A DNA stretch of 64,000 bases from Succinivibrio dextrinosolvens. Lineage in GTDB: Bacteria; Pseudomonadota; Gammaproteobacteria; Enterobacterales; Succinivibrionaceae. The stretch spans positions 2,936,747 to 3,000,746 of the forward strand of contig NZ_CP047056.1 of NCBI RefSeq assembly GCF_011065405.1. The letters are read 5' to 3'. Within the stretch, counting starts at the first letter, position 1; every line of letters starts with the position of its first letter. The translations under genes were made by a program, and so were the position numbers. Below are positions 1-7,524 of the stretch, in pieces. A model generated the notes under the pieces. It was not told the origin of the DNA. It ran no database searches and saw only the letters and a list, made by a program, of their open reading frames with translations.

Positions 1-425
1 GACAGGTTCTTCGCACTTTAATTCAAACCAAATCTCATCTTGGCACAAAAGGGGCGATTGTAGATGTATGCGAGAGCCTGGTTGGTGGTGCGGCTTCTAT
101 TATTGAATGGTTCGAAACAGAACCTCAAGGCACTCCCCATACGTTTATTGTCAAAGTTAATCAGGAATTGACCGGAAGGAGAGTTCCTTCTGAAGTATTG
201 GCGGATTTAATCAACGGAATAAATTACGCAAAACCAGTGCGTTCTCAATACACACTCGTTCTGGTTAATCAGCCTCTATATTCAGAATTAGATTTATCTT
301 TAGTCGTCAGAATGATGACTTATACCCATTTTTATACAAATCCTACATTGTGGTACGAGATGAACTCCAATAGTTGTTTTAGTGGTGGTTCTCGTAGCAT
401 GGCTTATTCTCATTTTTATTCATAA
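1..425 (+). CDS. Phage tail protein I (P2 gpI-like), 3' part only
   Basis: The reading frame is open from base 3 to a TAA at 423-425, so the gene starts before the window. The visible part resembles the C-terminal half of P2-type tail protein I: a segment like SHLGTKGAIVDVCESL, then an EWFE motif and a predicted beta strand (HTFIVKV) before a short helix. In P2-like phages this baseplate protein gene lies directly upstream of the tail fibre gene, as here, where a fibre gene begins 14 bases later. An internal ATG at 168 should not be taken as the true start. The family call rests on pattern and context, not on an alignment. Confidence 0.7.
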   Translation, partial: QVLRTLIQTKSHLGTKGAIVDVCESLVGGAASIIEWFETEPQGTPHTFIVKVNQELTGRRVPSEVLADLINGINYAKPVRSQYTLVLVNQPLYSELDLSLVVRMMTYTHFYTNPTLWYEMNSNSCFSGGSRSMAYSHFYS

Positions 426-438
426 TGGAGTTTTACAA

Positions 439-1548
439 ATGGCTCAGAATGTTGTTGTTACAAATGCAGGTCTTCAGGCTTTAATCAATGCAGAGCAGAC
501 TGGTACAGGTTCTGTTGTTTTAAACAAAGTTATTTTTTCTACAACTGCCATCAATGCCTCAACCGCTTCCGTTTTATCCGATATTACTGATATAGTTGCA
601 ACTCTCTCCTCAGTAAGCGGAACTGCAACTTCAGATCATACAATCCACGTCAGTGCTGGTGATACAGGAGACCAGGCATATACTGTTAAGACAATCGGCA
701 TTGTAACCGATCAAGATATTCTGTTTGCTGTTGTTAGTTCCGAGACTGGTCTTATTTCAAAAATCGCAACTACTCAGGCTTATGTTTCATTCGATATGGA
801 ACTGACTCAGGGTAATCCTCAATATATTACATTCGGTGATACCAACTTCCTGAATCCAGATGCAACATTTTCAACAAAGGGTATAGCTCAGTTGGCAACT
901 GAGGCTGAGGCTTTATTAGGCGAAAATGAAAGAAAAATAATTACTCCTGCTACTTTAGCTCAGGTTCTTGCTGTGTATGATCAGAGAATACAAGATCAGT
1001 TTAAAGAGTGTGGTTTTAATACCGGCGACATCAAGCCTTTAATTTCAAATAATATTAACGATGGCTGGCTGTTAGGAAACAGTGCGGTTGTTTCTCGTTC
1101 TGCAAACTCTAAACTGACTCAGTACGCTTATGACAACGGCTTTGTTCGTTCCGCTGCTGAACAGGCTGAGTACGAAGCTAACCCTGCAACCTTCTCTGGT
1201 CCAATCTATGGGCCTGGTGACGGCTCAACCACTATTCAGCTTCCTGATTTTAGAGGTCGTTCTTTAATGGGAGCTATGTCTTCTGCAAGGGTGGGTAGAT
1301 ACCAACCTGAACAGTTACCTAACATTACTGGTTCCGCTGGAGCTTCGAGACTAGGCATTAATGAGGTAAAAACTACATCAGGCGCACTATCATTAACAGC
1401 CAACGGGCGCATTGGAGGAGCTGGACCAGATACCACAAGAGCAGATGTAAAAATCGAATTTAACGCTCAAAATTGCTCCTCAGTATACTTAAACGCAGGG
1501 TCTGTCAGACCTTTATCTTTAACTCTTAATTATGTAATTAAGACTTAA
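439..1548 (+). CDS. Phage tail-collar fibre protein with exchangeable C-terminus
   Basis: A 369-residue tail fibre, translated from ATG 439 behind GGAG at 427-430. An upstream ATG at 382 lies inside the previous gene and is less likely. The N-terminal ~150 residues look like the phage tail-collar fibre (DUF3751-type) attachment domain. A fibre-repeat motif (STKGIAQLATEAEALLGENE) follows, then a tail collar domain with GDIKPL and LPDFRGRSLMG. From about residue 294 (QLPNITG, base 1318) the protein is a roughly 76-residue tip that ends in SSVYLNAGSVRPLSLTLNYV. That tip is one of 12 related versions held in the downstream array, and it begins exactly at a recombination half-site. It probably sets receptor specificity. 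Confidence 0.88.
   Translation: MAQNVVVTNAGLQALINAEQTGTGSVVLNKVIFSTTAINASTASVLSDITDIVATLSSVSGTATSDHTIHVSAGDTGDQAYTVKTIGIVTDQDILFAVVSSETGLISKIATTQAYVSFDMELTQGNPQYITFGDTNFLNPDATFSTKGIAQLATEAEALLGENERKIITPATLAQVLAVYDQRIQDQFKECGFNTGDIKPLISNNINDGWLLGNSAVVSRSANSKLTQYAYDNGFVRSAAEQAEYEANPATFSGPIYGPGDGSTTIQLPDFRGRSLMGAMSSARVGRYQPEQLPNITGSAGASRLGINEVKTTSGALSLTANGRIGGAGPDTTRADVKIEFNAQNCSSVYLNAGSVRPLSLTLNYVIKT
1312..1331 (+). repeat. Shufflon site 0, half-site inside the expressed fibre gene
   Basis: CCTAACATTACTGG at 1318-1331 matches the right arm of the internal sites. The left side (GAACAGTTA) does not carry the mirrored arm. It encodes P-N-I-T-G in the fibre frame and marks the border between constant and variable parts. 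Confidence 0.85.
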
Positions 1549-1758
1549 GCCTAGAGGACGAACACTACCAGAGTTAGTGTAAATGCTATCGTGTAGAGAA
1601 GCATCAAATGCGACTTTACCAGCACGATTACCAATTGGAGTCCTTGTCGGACCTAGATTAACTTGTGTAAAGGTAAAAACACCATCTGTTGTTGGCATTC
1701 CACTTTCATTGTTGGATAACATGTCCTTAATTGAACCAGTGATGTTAGGACCTAACAT
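1519..1758 (-). other. Silent fibre-tip cassette 1'
   Basis: Antisense partial frame of 79 codons that starts at site 1 with MLGPNITG and ends LGLSLNYIIKS. Its last 30 bases overlap, on the opposite strand, the last 30 bases of the expressed fibre gene. Inversion between sites 0 and 1 would join it to the fibre. It has no ribosome binding site of its own and is presumed untranslated in this position. Confidence 0.85.
1742..1758. repeat. Shufflon site 1
   Basis: Palindrome ATGTTAGGACCTAACAT with odd centre A. The symmetry extends imperfectly into CCAGTG on the left and AACAGG on the right. Both strands encode MLGPNITG outward into cassettes 1' and 2. Confidence 0.9.
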
Positions 1759-2008
1759 AACAGGTTATCAAAATTTTCGTTCTATCACCAACACTGGTGT
1801 AGGCGGGTGCATGATAAATGTAAACTCAGGGGCTTTTGATGTAAAAATACAGAAAGGTTCATCTGCAGATACAGTATCAGTTTTATCATCTACAAAAAAT
1901 ACAGACCAATTACAATTTAGCGCCAATAATTCAAACTCTGTTTATCAAGATGCAGGATTTATACGCCCATTCTCTTTAACGCTTAATTACATAATTAAAA
2001 GCAATTGA
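1751..2008 (+). other. Silent fibre-tip cassette 2
   Basis: Plus-strand partial frame of 86 codons starting at CCT in site 1 (PNITGYQNFRS) and ending FSLTLNYIIKSN. Open frame continues upstream only as the antisense of cassette 1', so translation from 1583 is not expected. It overlaps cassette 2' by 33 bases at the 3' ends. Confidence 0.85.
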
Positions 2009-2209
2009 TAGAGGTGTAACATGACTGTTGTCTTGATATACGGAACTAGAACGAGATGCATCTAAATTAAGTGCAAATGTCGAAGTGCTGGAGTTTGCTC
2101 CTACTGGTAAAGTAAAAACGTCTGACGCATAAAGACTTTTACCATCTTCTCCTACTTGTCCACAATAAGCTATACGATATAAATGTCCCGTTATGTTAGG
2201 ACCTAACAT
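1976..2209 (-). other. Silent fibre-tip cassette 2'
   Basis: Minus-strand partial frame that reads MLGPNITGHLYRIAYCG from site 2 and ends LSIAFNYVIKR. It contains the conserved tip block SSSVYQDNSHVTPLS, a divergent form of the common SIYTDSGKVYPLS block. Confidence 0.85.
2193..2209. repeat. Shufflon site 2
   Basis: Exact 17-base palindrome ATGTTAGGACCTAACAT. Flanks are GTCCCGTT on the left and TAAAGG on the right, so the rightward product reads MLGPNIKG. Confidence 0.9.
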
Positions 2210-2441
2210 TAAAGGTTACTTTAGTGTGAAAAATAATACTCAATTCCTCGGAATAACAAGTGGTGCTTTTAACATAGTCCAAGCAAGTGATTCATCTACT
2301 GAAAGAGTAAATGCATCTGTCGTTTCTGCATATACTCCAAATAGAACACAGCTTAATGCAAGTCTGTTTAATTCAACTTACACAGACAGCGGTAAGGTAT
2401 ATCCTCTATCGTTAGCATTAAACTTCATCATCAAGTGCTAG
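2193..2441 (+). other. Silent fibre-tip cassette 3
   Basis: Plus-strand partial frame of 82 codons: MLGPNIKGYFSVKNN at site 2, ending LSLALNFIIKC. It carries the SIYTDSG-type block as STYTDSGKVYPLS. The TAG stop overlaps the stop of cassette 3' by four bases. Confidence 0.85.
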
Positions 2442-2707
2442 GCTTTTATGATGAAATTCAAGGCAAGAGAAAGTGGGTACACCTTGCCTGAATTTACATA
2501 TGTACTATTAGAATTACTTGCGCTCATTTGAACTGCTCTATCAGATGTTGTGGATACAATTGTTCCCATAGGTAGAGAAATAGCATCTTCTCTAGAGTCA
2601 TATGTATTAAAAGCCCCATGTGCCAACGATGGTATTGAGCTCAGAGCTCCTTTTGATCCTATATAAAGGCTGTAAGCAAAAACACCTGTAATGTTAGGAC
2701 CTAACAT
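2438..2707 (-). other. Silent fibre-tip cassette 3'
   Basis: Minus-strand partial frame of 89 codons, the longest tip. It starts MLGPNITGVFAYSLY at site 3 and ends NSTYVNSGKVYPLSLALNF then IIKA. The variable middle shares little with the other cassettes. Confidence 0.85.
2691..2707. repeat. Shufflon site 3
   Basis: Exact palindrome ATGTTAGGACCTAACAT. The symmetry extends outward almost perfectly through CCTGTA on the left and TACAGG on the right, making this the most symmetric of the 17-base sites. Confidence 0.9.
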
Positions 2708-2933
2708 TACAGGAGATCTGCAAGGTATCAGAGGAGATGGAGGTTTAGGTGGTTCAGGTGCTTTCTCCTTAACATCATGGCACGCTTATAGATATGACGG
2801 TTATTCATCAAGTGGCGGTGGTAAAGATAGTGGTTATTTTCCTTTCTCTGCCCAAAAATCTAGTAGCATTTATTCTCCCGGTGGTCACGTATATCCGCTG
2901 TCTTTGGCTCTCAATTTCATAATTAAATGCTAG
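2691..2933 (+). other. Silent fibre-tip cassette 4
   Basis: Plus-strand partial frame of 80 codons: MLGPNITGDLQGIRG at site 3, a glycine-rich middle, and an end in SSSIYSPGGHVYPLSLALNF then IIKC. Its stop overlaps the stop of cassette 4' by four bases. Confidence 0.85.
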
Positions 2934-3163
2934 GCTTTTATGATGAAATTCAAAGCAAGGCTTAATGGATACACCTTGCCTGAGTCCGTGTAAATAGAAT
3001 TAGAACTTTTAGCGTCAAAATATAGTGTATGGGCACCAAAGTCACTTGTAACAGTTCCATTTGTTGCAGATCTAGTTAGCTCATTTCTTAATGCTCCACT
3101 ATCTATAGCATCAATAAACTGATAAAAATCACTTGAACTGCCCGTTATGTTAGGACCTAACAT
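2930..3163 (-). other. Silent fibre-tip cassette 4'
   Basis: Minus-strand partial frame of 77 codons, MLGPNITGSSSDFYQF at site 4, ending NSIYTDSGKVYPLSLALNF then IIKA. The last ~70 bases are close to those of cassettes 3' and 5', which suggests gene conversion or duplication of the 3' end. Confidence 0.85.
3147..3163. repeat. Shufflon site 4
   Basis: Exact palindrome ATGTTAGGACCTAACAT with flanks CCCGTT and AAAAGG, like site 2. The centre base is again A on the plus strand. Confidence 0.9.
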
Positions 3164-3371
3164 AAAAGGAACTTGTTTAATTCAGCAAGCTGGTGGTGCA
3201 TCAGTTAGCGGTGCTATCTTCTCAACAGGAATGAACTATGCTACACCTAATGCATCTTCAAGGGTTTCTTTAGTAAACGGTATCAATGCGTCATTATATA
3301 ACTCAGTTTACACTGACAGCGGACACGTCTATTCGCTGTCATTGGTGTTAAATTTTATCATTAAGACTTAA
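3147..3371 (+). other. Silent fibre-tip cassette 5
   Basis: Plus-strand partial frame of 74 codons: MLGPNIKGTCLIQQAGG at site 4, ending NSVYTDSGHVYSLSLVLNF then IIKT. It overlaps cassette 5' by 11 bases. Confidence 0.85.
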
Positions 3372-3579
3372 TTATGAAGTTTAAGGCAAGGCTCAATGGA
3401 TATACCTTGCCTGAGTCGGTGTAAATGGAGTTTGAATTATGAGCTGAAAAACCATCTTCAAAAAGATTAGCGGCACCATTCTGTAAACCAACATTTGAGA
3501 GCCTATGACCTGTCTGATAAAAAGCTCCACTTTGAGCTACTAGCGAGTATAATCCGCTAATTAGTCCTGTAATGTTAGG
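3361..3579 (-). other. Silent fibre-tip cassette 5'
   Basis: Minus-strand partial frame of 73 codons from CCT at 3579-3577: PNITGLISGLYSLVAQSG, ending NSIYTDSGKVYPLSLALNF then IIKS. The expanded site 5 removes the in-frame ATG that the other cassettes have, so no free-standing start exists. This shows the ATG in the other sites is probably incidental. Confidence 0.82.
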
Positions 3580-3595
3580 ACTTAGGTCCTAACAT
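3572..3595. repeat. Shufflon site 5, expanded by seven bases
   Basis: Both arms are present, ATGTTAGGA at 3572-3580 and TCCTAACAT at 3587-3595, but seven extra bases lie in the middle. The near-perfect palindrome runs from 3566 to 3601. The extra length equals a plausible 7-base crossover spacer. Confidence 0.85.
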
Positions 3596-3815
3596 TACAG
3601 GGCAATCAAAAAGTTTTATATGTTATGGTGCATTAATTAGCTCTGGAGCTTTGGGTAGTGGAAAAGATTCTGCATCACCTCATGCTTATGCTGGGAACTC
3701 GGGTAACGACAAAAATATATTATATTTTAATGCATCAAATAGTAATTCCATATATACAGACAATGGCTCTATAATTCCGTTATCTTTAGCACTTAACTAT
3801 GTAATTAAGGTGTAG
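3588..3815 (+). other. Silent fibre-tip cassette 6
   Basis: Plus-strand partial frame of 76 codons from CCT in site 5: PNITGQSKSFICYGAL, ending NSIYTDNGSIIPLSLALNYV then IKV. It has no ATG at the site because of the expanded centre. It overlaps cassette 6' by 30 bases. Confidence 0.82.
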
Positions 3816-3998
3816 AGATAGTGGAAAAACCTTTCCTGAATCAGTGTAAATGGCATTTGATTCCGACGCATTAAAAACATAATTTACCATTATTCTCTCT
3901 CCGTTACCGCTGAATCTTGCAGTATTATCGTTGTATTGAGATGTTGCTCCTGATGCGACCTTATATTGTCCTCCTGAGAATTTTCCAGTTATGTTAGG
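3786..3998 (-). other. Silent fibre-tip cassette 6'
   Basis: Minus-strand partial frame of 71 codons, the last of the array: PNITGKFSGGQYKVASG, ending NAIYTDSGKVFPLSLHLNYI then VKC. It starts at the terminal half-site. Confidence 0.82.
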
Positions 3999-4000
3999 AC
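3991..4000 (-). repeat. Shufflon site 6, terminal half-site
   Basis: ATGTTAGGAC with the outward flank CCAGTT. The right side continues as AAAAGAAAT and lacks the mirrored arm. With site 0 it forms the outer border of the array. Confidence 0.82.
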
Positions 4001-4005
4001 AAAAG

Positions 4006-4056
4006 AAATCACCTCTTAATTACGTAAAAACCGCCATTAAGAAGTGATTTTTTAAT
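4006..4056. terminator. Bidirectional terminator between shufflon and recombinase gene
   Basis: A 15-base stem with one mismatch (4006-4020 and 4036-4050) and a 15-base loop. It is followed by TTTTTT on the plus side; on the minus side the stem follows the recombinase stop and is trailed by TTTCTTTTG. It would end late fibre transcription and the recombinase message. Confidence 0.75.
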
Positions 4057-4079
4057 TGTGCCCAGCACAATATTTTAAT

Positions 4080-5225
4080 TCAGTCTTTTACCGAGTTAAC
4101 CGCTTGTATAAGCTTACTTCCGGAGGAATCCTCGGCACATACGGCACAATACATTTCAAAGATATATCTGAACCATTTCTGATATATCTCTCTGCGCTGT
4201 TCAAGATAATCTCCACGAAGATAGGCGCGTTCAGTCTGACTTCCATAAACATGTGCAAGGCAATCCTCCGCAACTTCAAACGGAATATTTTGATCTTTAA
4301 GCCATGTCCTAGCGGTAGCCCTTAATCCGTGATGGCAGAGCTGACCGTTTAACACTGACTTATTCAGGAAGCGTGACAAATACTGTTTGTGGACATGACT
4401 TCCTGAGGTGAAATGCCACACGTAAGCATTACGCTTGTCTGTATGGACAAGTTCTAAGACAGCGAGAATGTCCGGACACAAATGGACTCTGTGAACTCTA
4501 CGCTTTTTCATAATCTCAGCAGGGAGGGTAAGGGTATCTCCTTCAATCCATGCCCAGCGGACTGAAACGCACTCGATTGGTCTGAGCATTGAATAAACCG
4601 CCCATATAACAAAACAGTGAAATTCCAGCTTCTGACCTTTAAGAAGTACAAACAGTTCACAAAGTCGATGAGCCTGAATGTATGGGCGGTTCTTAACAGA
4701 GTAGGGCGCAAATACTCTGGATAACTTCCTGCATGGATTATTGGCAAGCAGTCCGGCACAGACAGCTAAATCAAGTATCTCATTAAGGCGCATTAAGATG
4801 CGTTTCAGAGTGGGTGGTTTATCCTTCAACTCCAGTAGGAGATTTAAGGCTAACGGTGCAGTAATCTGCTCCAGTTGCAGTTTACTTAATTTGGGAAGCA
4901 GATAGATTTCAATTCTCCGTTTCTCAACCTCATACGAGACTATGTAAGATTTCTTTTTATGACACCATAGCTTAAAAGCGTCTGTAAAAGTTAATCCTTT
5001 TGAAGGCTTGATCTTTAACTCCTCACGTTTCAGGTGTGCAAGCTGTCGAGCTTGAACAAGTGATAAATCAGGATAGAAGCCCAAAGTTACATCTTTAACT
5101 ATCCCTCTCACGTTGTATCGAAGCACAAAAGACTTATGACCGGAAGGATAGACACGCAGATACAAACTTTCACCCAGTCTGACCGTATAACGTTTTTCTT
5201 TTATTTTTAGTTTTGACAAATTCAT
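4080..5225 (-). CDS. Tyrosine recombinase, probable shufflon invertase
   Basis: A 381-residue P4-type integrase. The N-terminal ~75 residues resemble the DUF4102 arm-binding domain (LGESLYLRVYPSGHKSFVLR, then LGFYPDLSLVQAR). A core-binding helical region follows, then the catalytic domain. The catalytic set appears complete: Arg in MLRPIE, Lys in MKKRRVH, HGLR for the His/Arg box, LAHVYG for the second His, and the Tyr in AYLRGDYLEQRR. It lies directly beside the array and between fibre and chaperone genes, as rci does in R64, so inversion of the cassettes is its most likely job. It could instead, or also, be the prophage integrase. The window does not include the other prophage end, so this cannot be excluded. 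Confidence 0.85.
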   Translation of the reverse strand: MNLSKLKIKEKRYTVRLGESLYLRVYPSGHKSFVLRYNVRGIVKDVTLGFYPDLSLVQARQLAHLKREELKIKPSKGLTFTDAFKLWCHKKKSYIVSYEVEKRRIEIYLLPKLSKLQLEQITAPLALNLLLELKDKPPTLKRILMRLNEILDLAVCAGLLANNPCRKLSRVFAPYSVKNRPYIQAHRLCELFVLLKGQKLEFHCFVIWAVYSMLRPIECVSVRWAWIEGDTLTLPAEIMKKRRVHRVHLCPDILAVLELVHTDKRNAYVWHFTSGSHVHKQYLSRFLNKSVLNGQLCHHGLRATARTWLKDQNIPFEVAEDCLAHVYGSQTERAYLRGDYLEQRREIYQKWFRYIFEMYCAVCAEDSSGSKLIQAVNSVKD

Positions 5226-5226
5226 A

Positions 5227-5239
5227 AAGGAGACTCCTT
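5227..5239. promoter_or_regulatory. Palindromic Shine-Dalgarno shared by two divergent genes
   Basis: AAGGAGACTCCTT is a 13-base palindrome with odd centre. On the plus strand AAGGAG lies 7 bases before ATG 5240; on the minus strand AAGGAG lies 8 bases before the recombinase ATG at 5225-5223. Only 14 bases separate the two start codons, so neither gene can have a promoter in the gap. Confidence 0.85.
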
Positions 5240-5764
5240 ATGTCTAATACAACAACTGCTTATCAATTTGATAGTCAGGGTTACTACCTAAACGAAACTT
5301 TAGTACAAAAATTGGGAGAGGAATATTTAGTTCCTCCTGATTCCACCATGGCTGAACCAACATTTAAAGCCGGTTACTGGACCAAGTGGAACGGCTCAAA
5401 ATGGACTAATGAGAAGATCCCAACCACTTGTGCTGAGGCTATTAAGAAAGGTTTAACCTGTATCTCCAACGGTCAGGGTAAGCATAACTACGAGGTTAAA
5501 ATCTTATTAGAGGCTTTAGTTGCTGCAGACAGTGAACACTATAAAACCGTAGTCTCTGACAATTTCGTAATGACTATCGAGGAGATTCCTGAGCCTACTG
5601 AGGAAGAGAAGGCTCTTGAGAGAGAACAGGCAAAGCAGAATGCAGCTCAACAGGCAATTGATGATTTAATCAAGCAGATGACCATTGCAGACCTGAACGG
5701 TGACGAAGAATGGAAGGCTGAATTAAGAGAAGAATACCAGACATTAACAGCGGAGGCAGAATAA
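5240..5764 (+). CDS. Probable tail fibre assembly chaperone
   Basis: A 174-residue protein. It starts YQFDSQGYYLNETLVQ, has a W-rich middle (GYWTKWNGSKWTNEK) and an acidic, coiled C-terminus (EEIPEPTEEEKALEREQAKQ). This is the usual look of phage tail fibre assembly (Caudo_TAP-like) proteins, which are encoded just after the fibre gene and help it fold. Here the shufflon and recombinase separate it from the fibre. Its transcription must start inside the recombinase gene, antisense to it, or read through the terminator near 4050. The family call is from composition and position. Confidence 0.65.
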   Translation: MSNTTTAYQFDSQGYYLNETLVQKLGEEYLVPPDSTMAEPTFKAGYWTKWNGSKWTNEKIPTTCAEAIKKGLTCISNGQGKHNYEVKILLEALVAADSEHYKTVVSDNFVMTIEEIPEPTEEEKALEREQAKQNAAQQAIDDLIKQMTIADLNGDEEWKAELREEYQTLTAEAE

Positions 5765-5765
5765 A

Positions 5766-5990
5766 ATGAGCGAGACAGTATATCCAAAGCCAAGTCAGAC
5801 CTATGTAAGAAAAGGCAGATGTGTATATTGCGGTTCAAAGAAAATTAAGAACCTATACGGCTATGAATGGTGTGGCAAAACTTGTAAATTAGGAGCTCTT
5901 GGATTTGATATCTATGAGCGCGAAAATCATTTAGGCCCATATGCACCATCTGAACCAGAACCAGTAGAAGAAGATTCTGGAGAAGAGTAA
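5766..5990 (+). CDS. Small cysteine-motif phage protein
   Basis: A 74-residue protein starting one base after the previous stop, with GGAGG about nine bases upstream, so the two are co-transcribed. Residues ~17-40 hold CVYCGSKKIKNLYGYEWCGKTC, two cysteine pairs typical of a small zinc ribbon. The tail is acidic (EPEPVEEDSGEE). No named family is recognised. Position at the end of the tail operon suggests a late prophage gene, perhaps modifying the tail or the host. Confidence 0.6.
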   Translation: MSETVYPKPSQTYVRKGRCVYCGSKKIKNLYGYEWCGKTCKLGALGFDIYERENHLGPYAPSEPEPVEEDSGEE

Positions 5991-6075
5991 ATTTTTATAG
6001 TGAAATTTTGATTATCAAGATTAAGTATTCCTGGATAAAGAATACTTAATCTAATTTTTAGATCTTTTGTAAAAA

Positions 6076-6095
6076 GGGGTGCAATGGGGTGCAAT
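6076..6095 (+). repeat. Tandem decamer, possible integrase arm site
   Basis: GGGGTGCAAT occurs twice without a gap. Short direct repeats next to an attachment core are typical arm-type binding sites of tyrosine integrases. The core-like sequence lies about 250 bases to the right. Function is inferred. Confidence 0.4.
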
Positions 6096-6207
6096 AATAA
6101 ATCATATCTTTAAAAATCTAGATGTTCACTTCTTAATCTGACACTCCCTATGTCACCGCTAGAGCTTTCATTTACATTTCCTTATGTTTGTTATACAAGA
6201 TGATTCT

Positions 6208-6238
6208 ACCCACTCAGTCGAGTGGGTTCTTTTTTTTG
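6208..6238 (+). terminator. Rho-independent terminator of the prophage end
   Basis: Perfect 8-base stem ACCCACTC / GAGTGGGT with loop AGTC, followed by TCTTTTTTTT. It would stop transcription leaving the tail operon. Confidence 0.85.
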
Positions 6239-6347
6239 TTATAATTACATACGTAATTTAGGTCAATTACACATACATACAAAACTACATACAGATTCCT
6301 AAAATCTTGAATAATTCATTTTAAATCAAATAACTTATTAAATATTG

Positions 6348-6369
6348 TCAACTCCCTCCACCTCCACCA
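6348..6369 (+). repeat. tmRNA 3'-end copy 1, probable attR of the prophage
   Basis: TCAACT followed by CCCTCCACCTCCACCA. This has the layout of a T-loop end, a 5-base T-stem strand (CCCTC), a 7-base acceptor strand (CACCTCC) and ACCA. The acceptor would pair with GGGGGUG, with the G3-U70 pair and A73 expected of alanine-accepting tmRNA. No tmRNA body precedes it, so it is a 3' fragment, as phage integration into ssrA leaves behind. The intact gene would lie left of the window. Confidence 0.6.
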
Positions 6370-6558
6370 AAATCAAAAAAATCTTGTTTATATTCAAATA
6401 GTTATATCTTGTCTTTAGAATGACAAAGTGCCAAAAAATTTGAAATTTGGAGTTCAACTGATTCAATTTTTCAAAATGTAAAAATTGAGATGAAATCTTT
6501 GTTATTTTTTTTATAAAATGACTATCCTTTAAGTAAGATCATGTTTGAGGTGAAAATC

Positions 6559-6831
6559 ATGTATTACAGAATTGGTTTCCCTTTCTGGAAAATTATGGCT
6601 CGTTTAGGTTTTGTATTGAGCTATCGTTATGATATTTATTACAGCCGTGAGTCTGATGATTATTGTGCATACAGTCCAGATATTAAAGGGTTGTTTGCTG
6701 AGTCAAAAGATTTAAATGAAGTTGTATCTGCTATGCAGGAGGGTGCAAAAGAGTTGGTTTCTATTGATCTCGGCAGAAATGTAGATCATCTATGTCCTAC
6801 AGGAATTATTTCTAAGGCTCTTCCTGTATGA
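6559..6831 (+). CDS. hicB: HicB-like antitoxin
   Basis: A 90-residue protein, starting at ATG 6559 because GAGG at 6547-6550 is well placed for it; an ATG at 6541 has no such site. The core YDIYYSRESDDYCAYSPDIKGL followed by a predicted helix (DLNEVVSAMQEGAKELV) is the partly degraded RNase-H-like fold of HicB/DUF1902 antitoxins. The last bases overlap hicA (ATGA). Antitoxin-first order is a known variant. HicB would bind HicA and repress the operon. No helix-turn-helix or ribbon domain is obvious at the short C-terminus. Confidence 0.72.
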   Translation: MYYRIGFPFWKIMARLGFVLSYRYDIYYSRESDDYCAYSPDIKGLFAESKDLNEVVSAMQEGAKELVSIDLGRNVDHLCPTGIISKALPV

Positions 6832-7037
6832 ATGGTTATTACTCGCTAGTTATTAAGTTACTTCAACAAATCGGCTACGAATACTACAGAAACGGAAAAG
6901 GCTCACATGAAATATGGGTTCAGAAAGACAAAGATGGAAATATTTGTGGTCGCTGTCAGATTCCAAGACATCTAGACAATAAAGTTTGGGCAAACAAATT
7001 GCTAAAAGATGCCGGAATAAAAGAAAAGATCAGATAA
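6828..7037 (+). CDS. hicA: HicA-like mRNA interferase toxin
   Basis: A 69-residue protein with the double-stranded RNA-binding-like fold expected of HicA/YcfA: helix (LVIKLLQQIGYEYYR), then GKGSHEIWVQKDKDG with the catalytic histidine in GSHEIW, then CQIPRHLDNKVW and a C-terminal helix ending LKDAGI. Translation couples to hicB through a four-base overlap. It lies alone with hicB between two tmRNA-end copies, so the pair may stabilise this small insert. Confidence 0.82.
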   Translation: MNGYYSLVIKLLQQIGYEYYRNGKGSHEIWVQKDKDGNICGRCQIPRHLDNKVWANKLLKDAGIKEKIR

Positions 7038-7524
7038 ATTTTGTTATTATTAGGTTCAGTTCTTATTCGTACTTTTTGTAGGAATAAATGATTTTATATT
7101 TATAAATATGTTGTTTTAACAAATTAGATCCCTACATTACGTAGGTTTCAAAGTCCTATATGAGGCATCCATAAGTCCAAAATATAGGCCGCTACAGATT
7201 TGAGATTTGCAATCAACTGTAGTGTCAGTGCCCCTCTCTATGATGGGCTAATCATTTCTACATAGCCATGGTTACGATGTAACCAAGAATCTTAAGTGCT
7301 TAATCAGACTAATCATTAGAACTGTAATAAAGAATAGGGACTTAGTTTCTATTTTGCTCATTTTCAAATGAATAGATTCATTAAAATCTGTAGTTTTTTG
7401 TAGAGTTTTTATATTTAATTGATTTGTAAACTAATTTTATAGTAATTTATCCCTCCACCTCCACCAAAGCCTTTAACACCTTGATGCAGCATGAAGAGAG
7501 CTGTTTCAATTCTGTTTTCTTGTG
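7038..7524. other. Spacer with small hairpins and the first 84-bp repeat
   Basis: No gene is seen. Several short inverted repeats sit close together: CCTAC / GTAGG near 7132-7146, CTACAG / CTGTAG near 7192-7222, and TGGTTAC / GTAACCA near 7269-7285. They might be a structured RNA or remnant mobile DNA. The 84-bp repeat starts at 7394. Confidence 0.45.
7394..7477 (+). repeat. 84-bp direct repeat, left copy, with tmRNA-like end
   Basis: Matches 9355-9438 without gaps at about 77 of 84 positions. It contains CCCTCCACCTCCACCA at 7451-7466, the same acceptor-strand sequence as at 6354-6369. The paired copies bracket 1961 bases that hold one gene, so they look like attachment sites of an inserted unit. 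Confidence 0.8.

Follow-up and report, generated by a model that had tools for sequence, protein, structure and literature searches.

Within a 64-kb stretch of Succinivibrio dextrinosolvens DNA (the window; G000:C1:2936747-3000746, taken from a 3.47-Mb single-contig genome), a prophage tail-fibre gene (439-1548) is followed by six DNA segments that carry twelve tip cassettes in convergent pairs. This array is very probably a multi-segment inversion system (a shufflon) through which a temperate phage with a contractile tail exchanges the C-terminal tip of its tail fibre. Shuffling at a short crossover core has happened between two near-identical prophages, and the system has been active at least recently.

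Twelve in-frame tips open at one short core

The constant part of the fibre ends in ...EQL, with TTA as the codon of the terminal leucine. Behind it lies the cassette array (1318-4000), in which six forward and six reverse cassettes alternate strictly (+-+-+-+-+-+-). Ten cassettes open with the peptide PNITG and two with PNIKG, their DNA starting with CCTAACAT (translated as Pro-Asn-Ile and followed by Thr or Lys and a Gly), and they run for 70-86 amino acids (aa) to a common tail, typically ...SIYTDSGKVYPLSLALNFIIK. Over all 66 cassette pairs, mean identity was 59% in the last 28 residues and 19.5% in the middle. Every one of the twelve is in frame with the constant part, giving complete fibres of 363-379 aa. 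A preliminary description of this DNA had claimed twelve related tips in six segments, arranged in convergent pairs and in phase at PNI[T/K]G, and the twelve cores and twelve in-frame cassettes bear this out.

The 8-mer CCTAACAT occurs twelve times in the 64 kb, each time at a cassette start, against a mean of 1.70 and a maximum of 6 copies in 100 shuffles. The first (1318) and last (3991-3998) cores are unpaired, and at the five other junctions two inverted cores stand back to back; the palindromic separating sites of the preliminary description are thus found at these five junctions and not at the two outermost cores. Besides the core, all twelve sites have in common an A at +10 and GG at +13/+14, the opposite side being variable. 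These flanking bases double as codon positions, a related locus (L033) keeps mainly the GG, and there is no 13-nt run. The array consists of segments lying between inverted copies of one short site and holding alternative C-termini for one constant N-terminus, which is the organisation of a shufflon.

Table 1 Features of the fibre locus (positions in the window).
Feature	Position	Strand	Basis or remark
Tail-fibre constant part (N-terminal fibre domain and tail-collar domain)	439..1317	+	Pfam Collar E 2.9e-8; PHROG tail fibre families
Tip C1 (76 aa, PNITG...NYVIKT)	1318..1548	+	expressed as assembled
First core CCTAACAT	1318..1325	+	within fibre gene
Tip C2 (76 aa)	1519..1749	-	
Junction S1/S2	1742..1758		inverted cores 1742-1749 (-) and 1751-1758 (+), 1-bp gap
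Tip C3 (85 aa)	1751..2008	+	
Tip C4 (74 aa)	1976..2200	-	
Junction S2/S3	2193..2209		inverted core pair, 1-bp gap
Tip C5 (79 aa)	2202..2441	+	
Tip C6 (86 aa)	2438..2698	-	
Junction S3/S4	2691..2707		inverted core pair, 1-bp gap
Tip C7 (77 aa)	2700..2933	+	
Tip C8 (74 aa)	2930..3154	-	
Junction S4/S5	3147..3163		inverted core pair, 1-bp gap
Tip C9 (71 aa)	3156..3371	+	
Tip C10 (72 aa)	3361..3579	-	
Junction S5/S6	3572..3595		inverted core pair, 8-bp gap ACTTAGGT at 3580-3587
Tip C11 (75 aa)	3588..3815	+	
Tip C12 (70 aa)	3786..3998	-	
Last core	3991..3998	-	array end nearest recombinase
Terminator-like hairpin between array and recombinase gene	4055..4071	+	consensus match only
Tyrosine recombinase with arm-type DNA-binding domain	4080..5225	-	Pfam Arm-DNA-bind_3, Phage_int_M, Phage_integrase
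Gene after recombinase, in the usual place of a tail-fibre assembly gene	5240..5764	+	no Pfam match
attR, 23-bp copy of sequence spanning the tmRNA 3' end; right end of prophage	6348..6370	+	

A second isomer is three core-to-core inversions away

The preliminary description had proposed looking for other segment orders in related genomes, and one was found in the viral contig IMGVR 2626541589 (L022, L019), which shows 99.8-100% identity to the window's prophage over its aligned blocks and whose segments run S1 S4 S5 -S3 -S2 -S6. We performed an inversion search over window bases 1-6600 with a script that, at each of at most three steps, flips the DNA from a forward core to a reverse core further downstream. 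Among the 2,472 states generated, one equals the L022 sequence at every base (6,600 bases, Hamming distance 0), reached by inverting S2-S5, then the block -S5 -S4, then S6; three steps are the minimum. Between the two isomers, base -1 and the ACTTAGGT spacer keep their place while base +9 and everything beyond travel with the cassette, which places the exchange inside CCTAACAT and thereby identifies the shuffling as site-specific. All six segments are present in both isomers and no segment deletion was seen, despite the abundance of directly repeated cores.

If the cassettes were instead a silent archive, used through homologous recombination or gene conversion, the up to 26 bp that cassette ends have in common could serve as substrate. 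The breakpoints between the window and L022 lie in the 8-bp core, however, and not in the 26-bp repeat, and the 6,600 bp show no mismatch, making this account highly improbable. We consider it equally improbable that the array is static and the difference in order an assembly artefact. Contigs from three relatives (G425, G426, G484; L032, L034, L054) do stop at most about 600 bp from the recombinase on its array side, which would not be surprising if a mixture of orders disrupted assembly. Against an artefact, the L022 contig is 55 kb long and its order corresponds to exactly three legal inversions. No 27-mer recurs in the array, its longest repeat (26 bp) lying away from any core, so that misassembly and homologous recombination are both poor accounts of the new order.

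The window's prophage differs from L022 by an insertion-sequence-like element of about 1.75 kb in the tail region (L011:14530-16270, about window -4218 to -2477), with 55-nt inverted ends that are 91% complementary. Its absence from L022 indicates that the two assemblies do not go back to a single record. This insertion, together with the presence of tip C1 in the expressed position of both prophages, would fit a system that worked recently and is now inactive in this strain. Such a loss appears unlikely, as the recombinase gene has an intact reading frame and retains the conserved residues, and the array and att sites are in place.

Each of the six segments holds two convergent tips and has an 8-bp core at each end, pointing inward. 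In the mechanism that we propose, the recombinase would bind two inverted cores, exchange strands within the shared 7-8 bp, which are probably the strand-exchange region, and flip the intervening DNA. An inversion starting from the core inside the fibre gene would bring a new tip into frame at Pro-Asn-Ile, with any of the twelve possible, and inversions elsewhere in the array would reorder the store, for which 46,080 signed segment orders are possible in principle. Shuffling in the lysogen would then be expected to yield a mixed virion population. As for the claim that the prophage can switch among at least twelve tips, the shuffled order in L022 supports the shuffling itself, while a switch of the expressed tip in the window's phage is a probable consequence, C1 being in place in both isomers.

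A tyrosine recombinase adjoins the array

The product of the gene at 4080-5225 matches Arm-DNA-bind_3 with E 9.4e-12, and the profile of its family matches the solved arm domains 3jtz and 3ju0. Its residues R215, K240, H299, R302, H325 and Y335 are invariant in nine aligned sequences; we take them to be the catalytic R-K-H-R-H-Y set of tyrosine recombinases, and with its Pfam Phage_integrase domain they place the protein in that superfamily. Its repeated occurrence beside such arrays and its intact conserved residues make it the likely shufflase. Against phage records the protein gave 205 matches, all below 60% identity, the 30 matches listed lying at 26-33% and being mostly annotated as integrases. 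The recombinase of a related locus from Candidatus Aphodousia gallistercoris (L033) reached about 31% in the best five of 361 phage records, and plasmid relatives stood at 28.6-31.9% in the best six of 512 records. A comparison of the array DNA with 50,697 phage records returned no match.

The inversions could alternatively be the work of a recombinase acting in trans, either a host serine enzyme of the Hin/Gin type or the prophage's own integrase, in which case 4080-5225 would be a spare integrase. The genome does contain two serine recombinases of Hin/Gin size (189 and 191 aa, at G000:C1:697904 and 2186738), and the prophage integrase shares all three Pfam domains of the 4080-5225 product. 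Neither host serine gene lies in or near the array, however, and of the 12 core-bearing loci 11 have an enzyme of the 4080 type next to the array, as have three of the four contigs to which the site alone led (see below). The exchange region, moreover, is an 8-bp identical block, which is typical of tyrosine and not of 2-bp serine recombination. Taken together, we judge action in trans to be decidedly unlikely. A whole-genome scan for serine recombinases (Pfam PF00239) gave four places, none of them in the prophage, and inspection for inverted repeats around both Hin/Gin-size genes showed nothing clear.

Related loci each keep a nearly uniform core

Relatives of the recombinase were sought with single sequences and with profiles in three collections, and viral contigs were also scanned with the site as sole query. 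The names of the recombinase relatives include Succinatimonas and Succinivibrio, with three genomes from the window's genus. Related recombinases adjoin similar arrays in Succinivibrio/Succinatimonas, in Sutterellaceae and in viral contigs, with 2 to 19 core copies per array. At least two core copies were present in twelve loci including the window, for a total of 82 copies with L022 left out of the count (window, 12; L023, 2; L024, 9; L027, 2; L033, 19; L049, 11; L050, 6; L052, 2; L061, 4; L062, 7; L063, 2; L066, 6). An open frame of at least 45 residues starts at 79 of these 82 copies, and one of the other three runs into the end of its contig. In L023, which has two cores, the frame of the second tip (L023:4073, -) stops after 13 codons, and the array of L033 (L033:9130-13600), in which all 19 cores open tips, is larger than that of the window.

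Most core-bearing loci were found through the recombinase, and 11 of the 12 show a related recombinase next to the array, the contig of L062 ending first; identities are 40-96% where given, the L052 enzyme having been recognised by profile only (E 3.3e-141). The DNA scan with the site alone matched four viral contigs, three of which encode the recombinase (the fourth is L062); a search for the site in other prophages was a check that the preliminary description had suggested.

In scans allowing several spellings of the border, each locus used one, apart from L051 and L064 (see below): CCTAACAT in 12/12 copies (the window), CCAAATGT in 8/8, CCGGACAT in 10/10 and CCGAATAT in 5/5. CCAAACAT accounted for 17/17 in its locus, where two further copies differ at base 8. 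Between loci, most of the differences are either silent or replace Asn by Asp or Ile by Val. This pattern of one spelling per locus indicates that the DNA, and not the peptide alone, is near-constant inside each array, with a common block of 7-8 bp. Next to the core, the Leu codon that precedes it in the fibre gene is TTA in 12 of 12 fibres, versus 60 of 231 (26%) of their other Leu codons, these fibres being partly non-independent (the window group and the L061 group contribute three each, genome G434 two). In the fibre of L052, with 66% GC, the core-adjacent TTA is the only one among 23 Leu codons.

Among 73 viral loci, tips with a common 8-mer numbered 12 in L019, 8 in L020, 6 each in L066 and L062, 4 in L061 and 2 in L063; of the remainder, L077, whose recombinase is 26% identical, had two such tips, 26 loci had one tip and 40 had none. 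Within this material, L077 was the sole one of 63 control loci (L068-L130, recombinase at most 35% identical) with two tips sharing an 8-mer. Several candidates were rejected as arrays: L064, L065 and L067, with recombinases at 41-43%, have no two tips with a common 8-mer, and L026, L048, L053 and L054 have one tip or none in view. In genome G434, the expressed tip of a second fibre locus (L049:3540, L053:3583) looks nearly identical, judged by its two ends, to one of the tips stored at the first.

The recombinase was matched in 4 of 56 genomes of the window's family (E 1e-60), in 8 of 67 of the family of G424 (E 1e-100), in 1 of 369 across the class (E 1e-70), which is the window's own genome, and in 3 of 300 across the order of G424 (E 1e-130), none of them new. 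A recombinase match by itself does not amount to an array, and several of the matching contigs are too short to tell.

More tentatively, and at a little under an even chance, we suggest that an integrase lineage with an arm domain (CP4-type) became dedicated fibre shufflases in phages of gut bacteria of the Succinivibrio type and of the Sutterellaceae. The enzyme would then read little of the core itself, and any 7-8 bp might serve provided that the copies in one array agree, so that each locus would let its core drift in concert; the arm domain, in place of a conserved site arm, could confine the reaction to inversion.

Points that weigh against a tip-swapping shufflon

Several observations count against interpreting the array as a shufflon that exchanges fibre tips. 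The case has been built entirely on assembled sequences; one isomer pair is known, and tip C1 is expressed in both of its members. The assignment of the reaction to the 4080-5225 enzyme draws on gene neighbourhood and is accordingly a probable one. The tree groups the 14 family recombinases with weak support (65/37), and two of them, L026 and L054, have no tip in view. The locus L051 (L051:2216-3164) carries a tandem array running in one direction, with four of five cores alike, and is perhaps a decayed array; its neighbours are a related recombinase and housekeeping genes. In L064 there are only two tips, and their 8-mers (CCAAACAG and CCAAACAT, each present once) are alike except for the last base.

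The tips themselves gave no match in the PDB at E 0.1, and the structure model of the tip is poor (predicted local distance difference test, pLDDT, 63; predicted template modelling score, pTM, 0.34), with strands at residues 105-148 in its better part. A search of BFVD returned 175 matches, none at E 0.001 or better, with a tail-collar protein in second place at E 0.25, and this result was set aside. Because of the poor model and the missing PDB match, the argument for receptor binding is one of position and analogy: the place of the tips at the fibre end, and the behaviour of the phage system FRphi (see below), suggest that they set receptor specificity.

The host prophage

Behind a transfer-messenger RNA (tmRNA) gene (L009:15935-16297) comes an integrase gene (L009:16499-17626), on the attL side, and the distance between the att sites gives a prophage of 48,819 bp. 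Its genes include those for terminase, portal, head protease, major head protein, tail sheath, tape measure and baseplate proteins, which identifies a contractile-tailed phage in which the fibre gene follows the tail genes. With an integrase already present beside the tmRNA gene, the 4080-5225 product is the second tyrosine recombinase of the prophage; its gene lies 1.1 kb from attR, at the opposite end from attL, so that it may have an additional role in integration. For the gene that follows (5240-5764), we presume a role in tail-fibre assembly from its position and the usual synteny of tail-fibre assembly genes. A second, shorter copy of the tmRNA end is found at 7450-7467, 1.1 kb past attR, and the interval between the two copies holds a HicA-like toxin gene preceded by a partner gene (6541-7037), perhaps as a small separate element.

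Comparison with known systems

Multi-tip phage fibre shufflons have been described before, in the accessible text of the respective papers: Rin of Bifidobacterium prophages (PMC6109161), rin of Eggerthella lenta prophages (PMC8778435), the gin-driven FRphi (PMC13418256) and Min of p15B, a tail-fibre shufflon as portrayed in PMC6109161. The preliminary description took the two-state switch of phage Mu as its yardstick; given these precedents, Mu is not the right ceiling. A literature search found no paper on the present array, subscription papers being mostly outside its coverage.

The closest parallels are Rin and E. lenta rin, in which, according to the available portions of the two reports, receptor-binding-protein tips of a prophage are inverted at short repeats (11 bp and 8 bp), an adjoining tyrosine recombinase is distinct from the integrase, and segment orders vary between relatives. 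These systems hold five tips as against twelve in the window, and they occupy other hosts. Rin is presented in the accessible part of PMC6109161 as having a tyrosine invertase without an arm-type domain, 3jtz and 3ju0 being the arm-domain references there, whereas the window's enzyme has Arm-DNA-bind_3. The Rin authors ask in the same text how such systems invert yet avoid deletion (PMC6109161), and the arm domain that Rin lacks makes this question testable.

The preliminary description had drawn a parallel with the R64 shufflon (PilV, Rci), which holds for the working of the system and fails for the enzyme. In both, a tyrosine recombinase gene stands at the array end, the core is short, and inverted segments carry alternative C-termini; the R64 sfx sites have a 7-bp core, with conserved bases confined to that core and the right arm and a variable left arm, and the window's sites may resemble them in this asymmetry. 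R64 differs in varying a pilus adhesin instead of a fibre and in having four segments where the window has six. Its sfx sites have arms of 12 bp, and the longest run conserved among them is 13 nt, as far as given in the accessible text of PMC11852207, compared with an unbroken conserved run of 8 bp in the window. No significant kinship between Rci and the 4080-5225 recombinase was detected by BLASTP (E 9.8) or hhalign (probability 3.3%), and Rci has Phage_integrase as its sole Pfam domain where the window's enzyme has three.

Systems of the Min/Gin type, including FRphi (PMC13418256, in its available text), likewise swap tail-fibre C-termini by inversion in a phage. They use serine recombinases, whereas the window has none beside the fibre locus, and FRphi has three tips, one of which allowed infection of the tested host (PMC13418256). 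The integrases of the CP4/P4 type, with Arm-DNA-bind_3, have the same domain order as the window's enzyme and are its best annotated phage relatives (26-33% among the 30 matches listed); they are mostly annotated as integrases, in contrast to the window's gene, a second tyrosine recombinase far from attL.

Tip stores beside one phage fibre gene thus reach twelve to nineteen, with direct proof of shuffling, from sequence, for the twelve-tip case. The tip seen in an assembly is one of many, and host prediction from a single assembly can therefore mislead. The set of loci, with 2 to 19 cores and a core that varies between loci and hardly within them, makes it possible to ask what the recombinase recognises. 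Tail-fibre shufflons as such were already known; what is new in comparison with them is the large tip store, the other hosts and the different enzyme branch.

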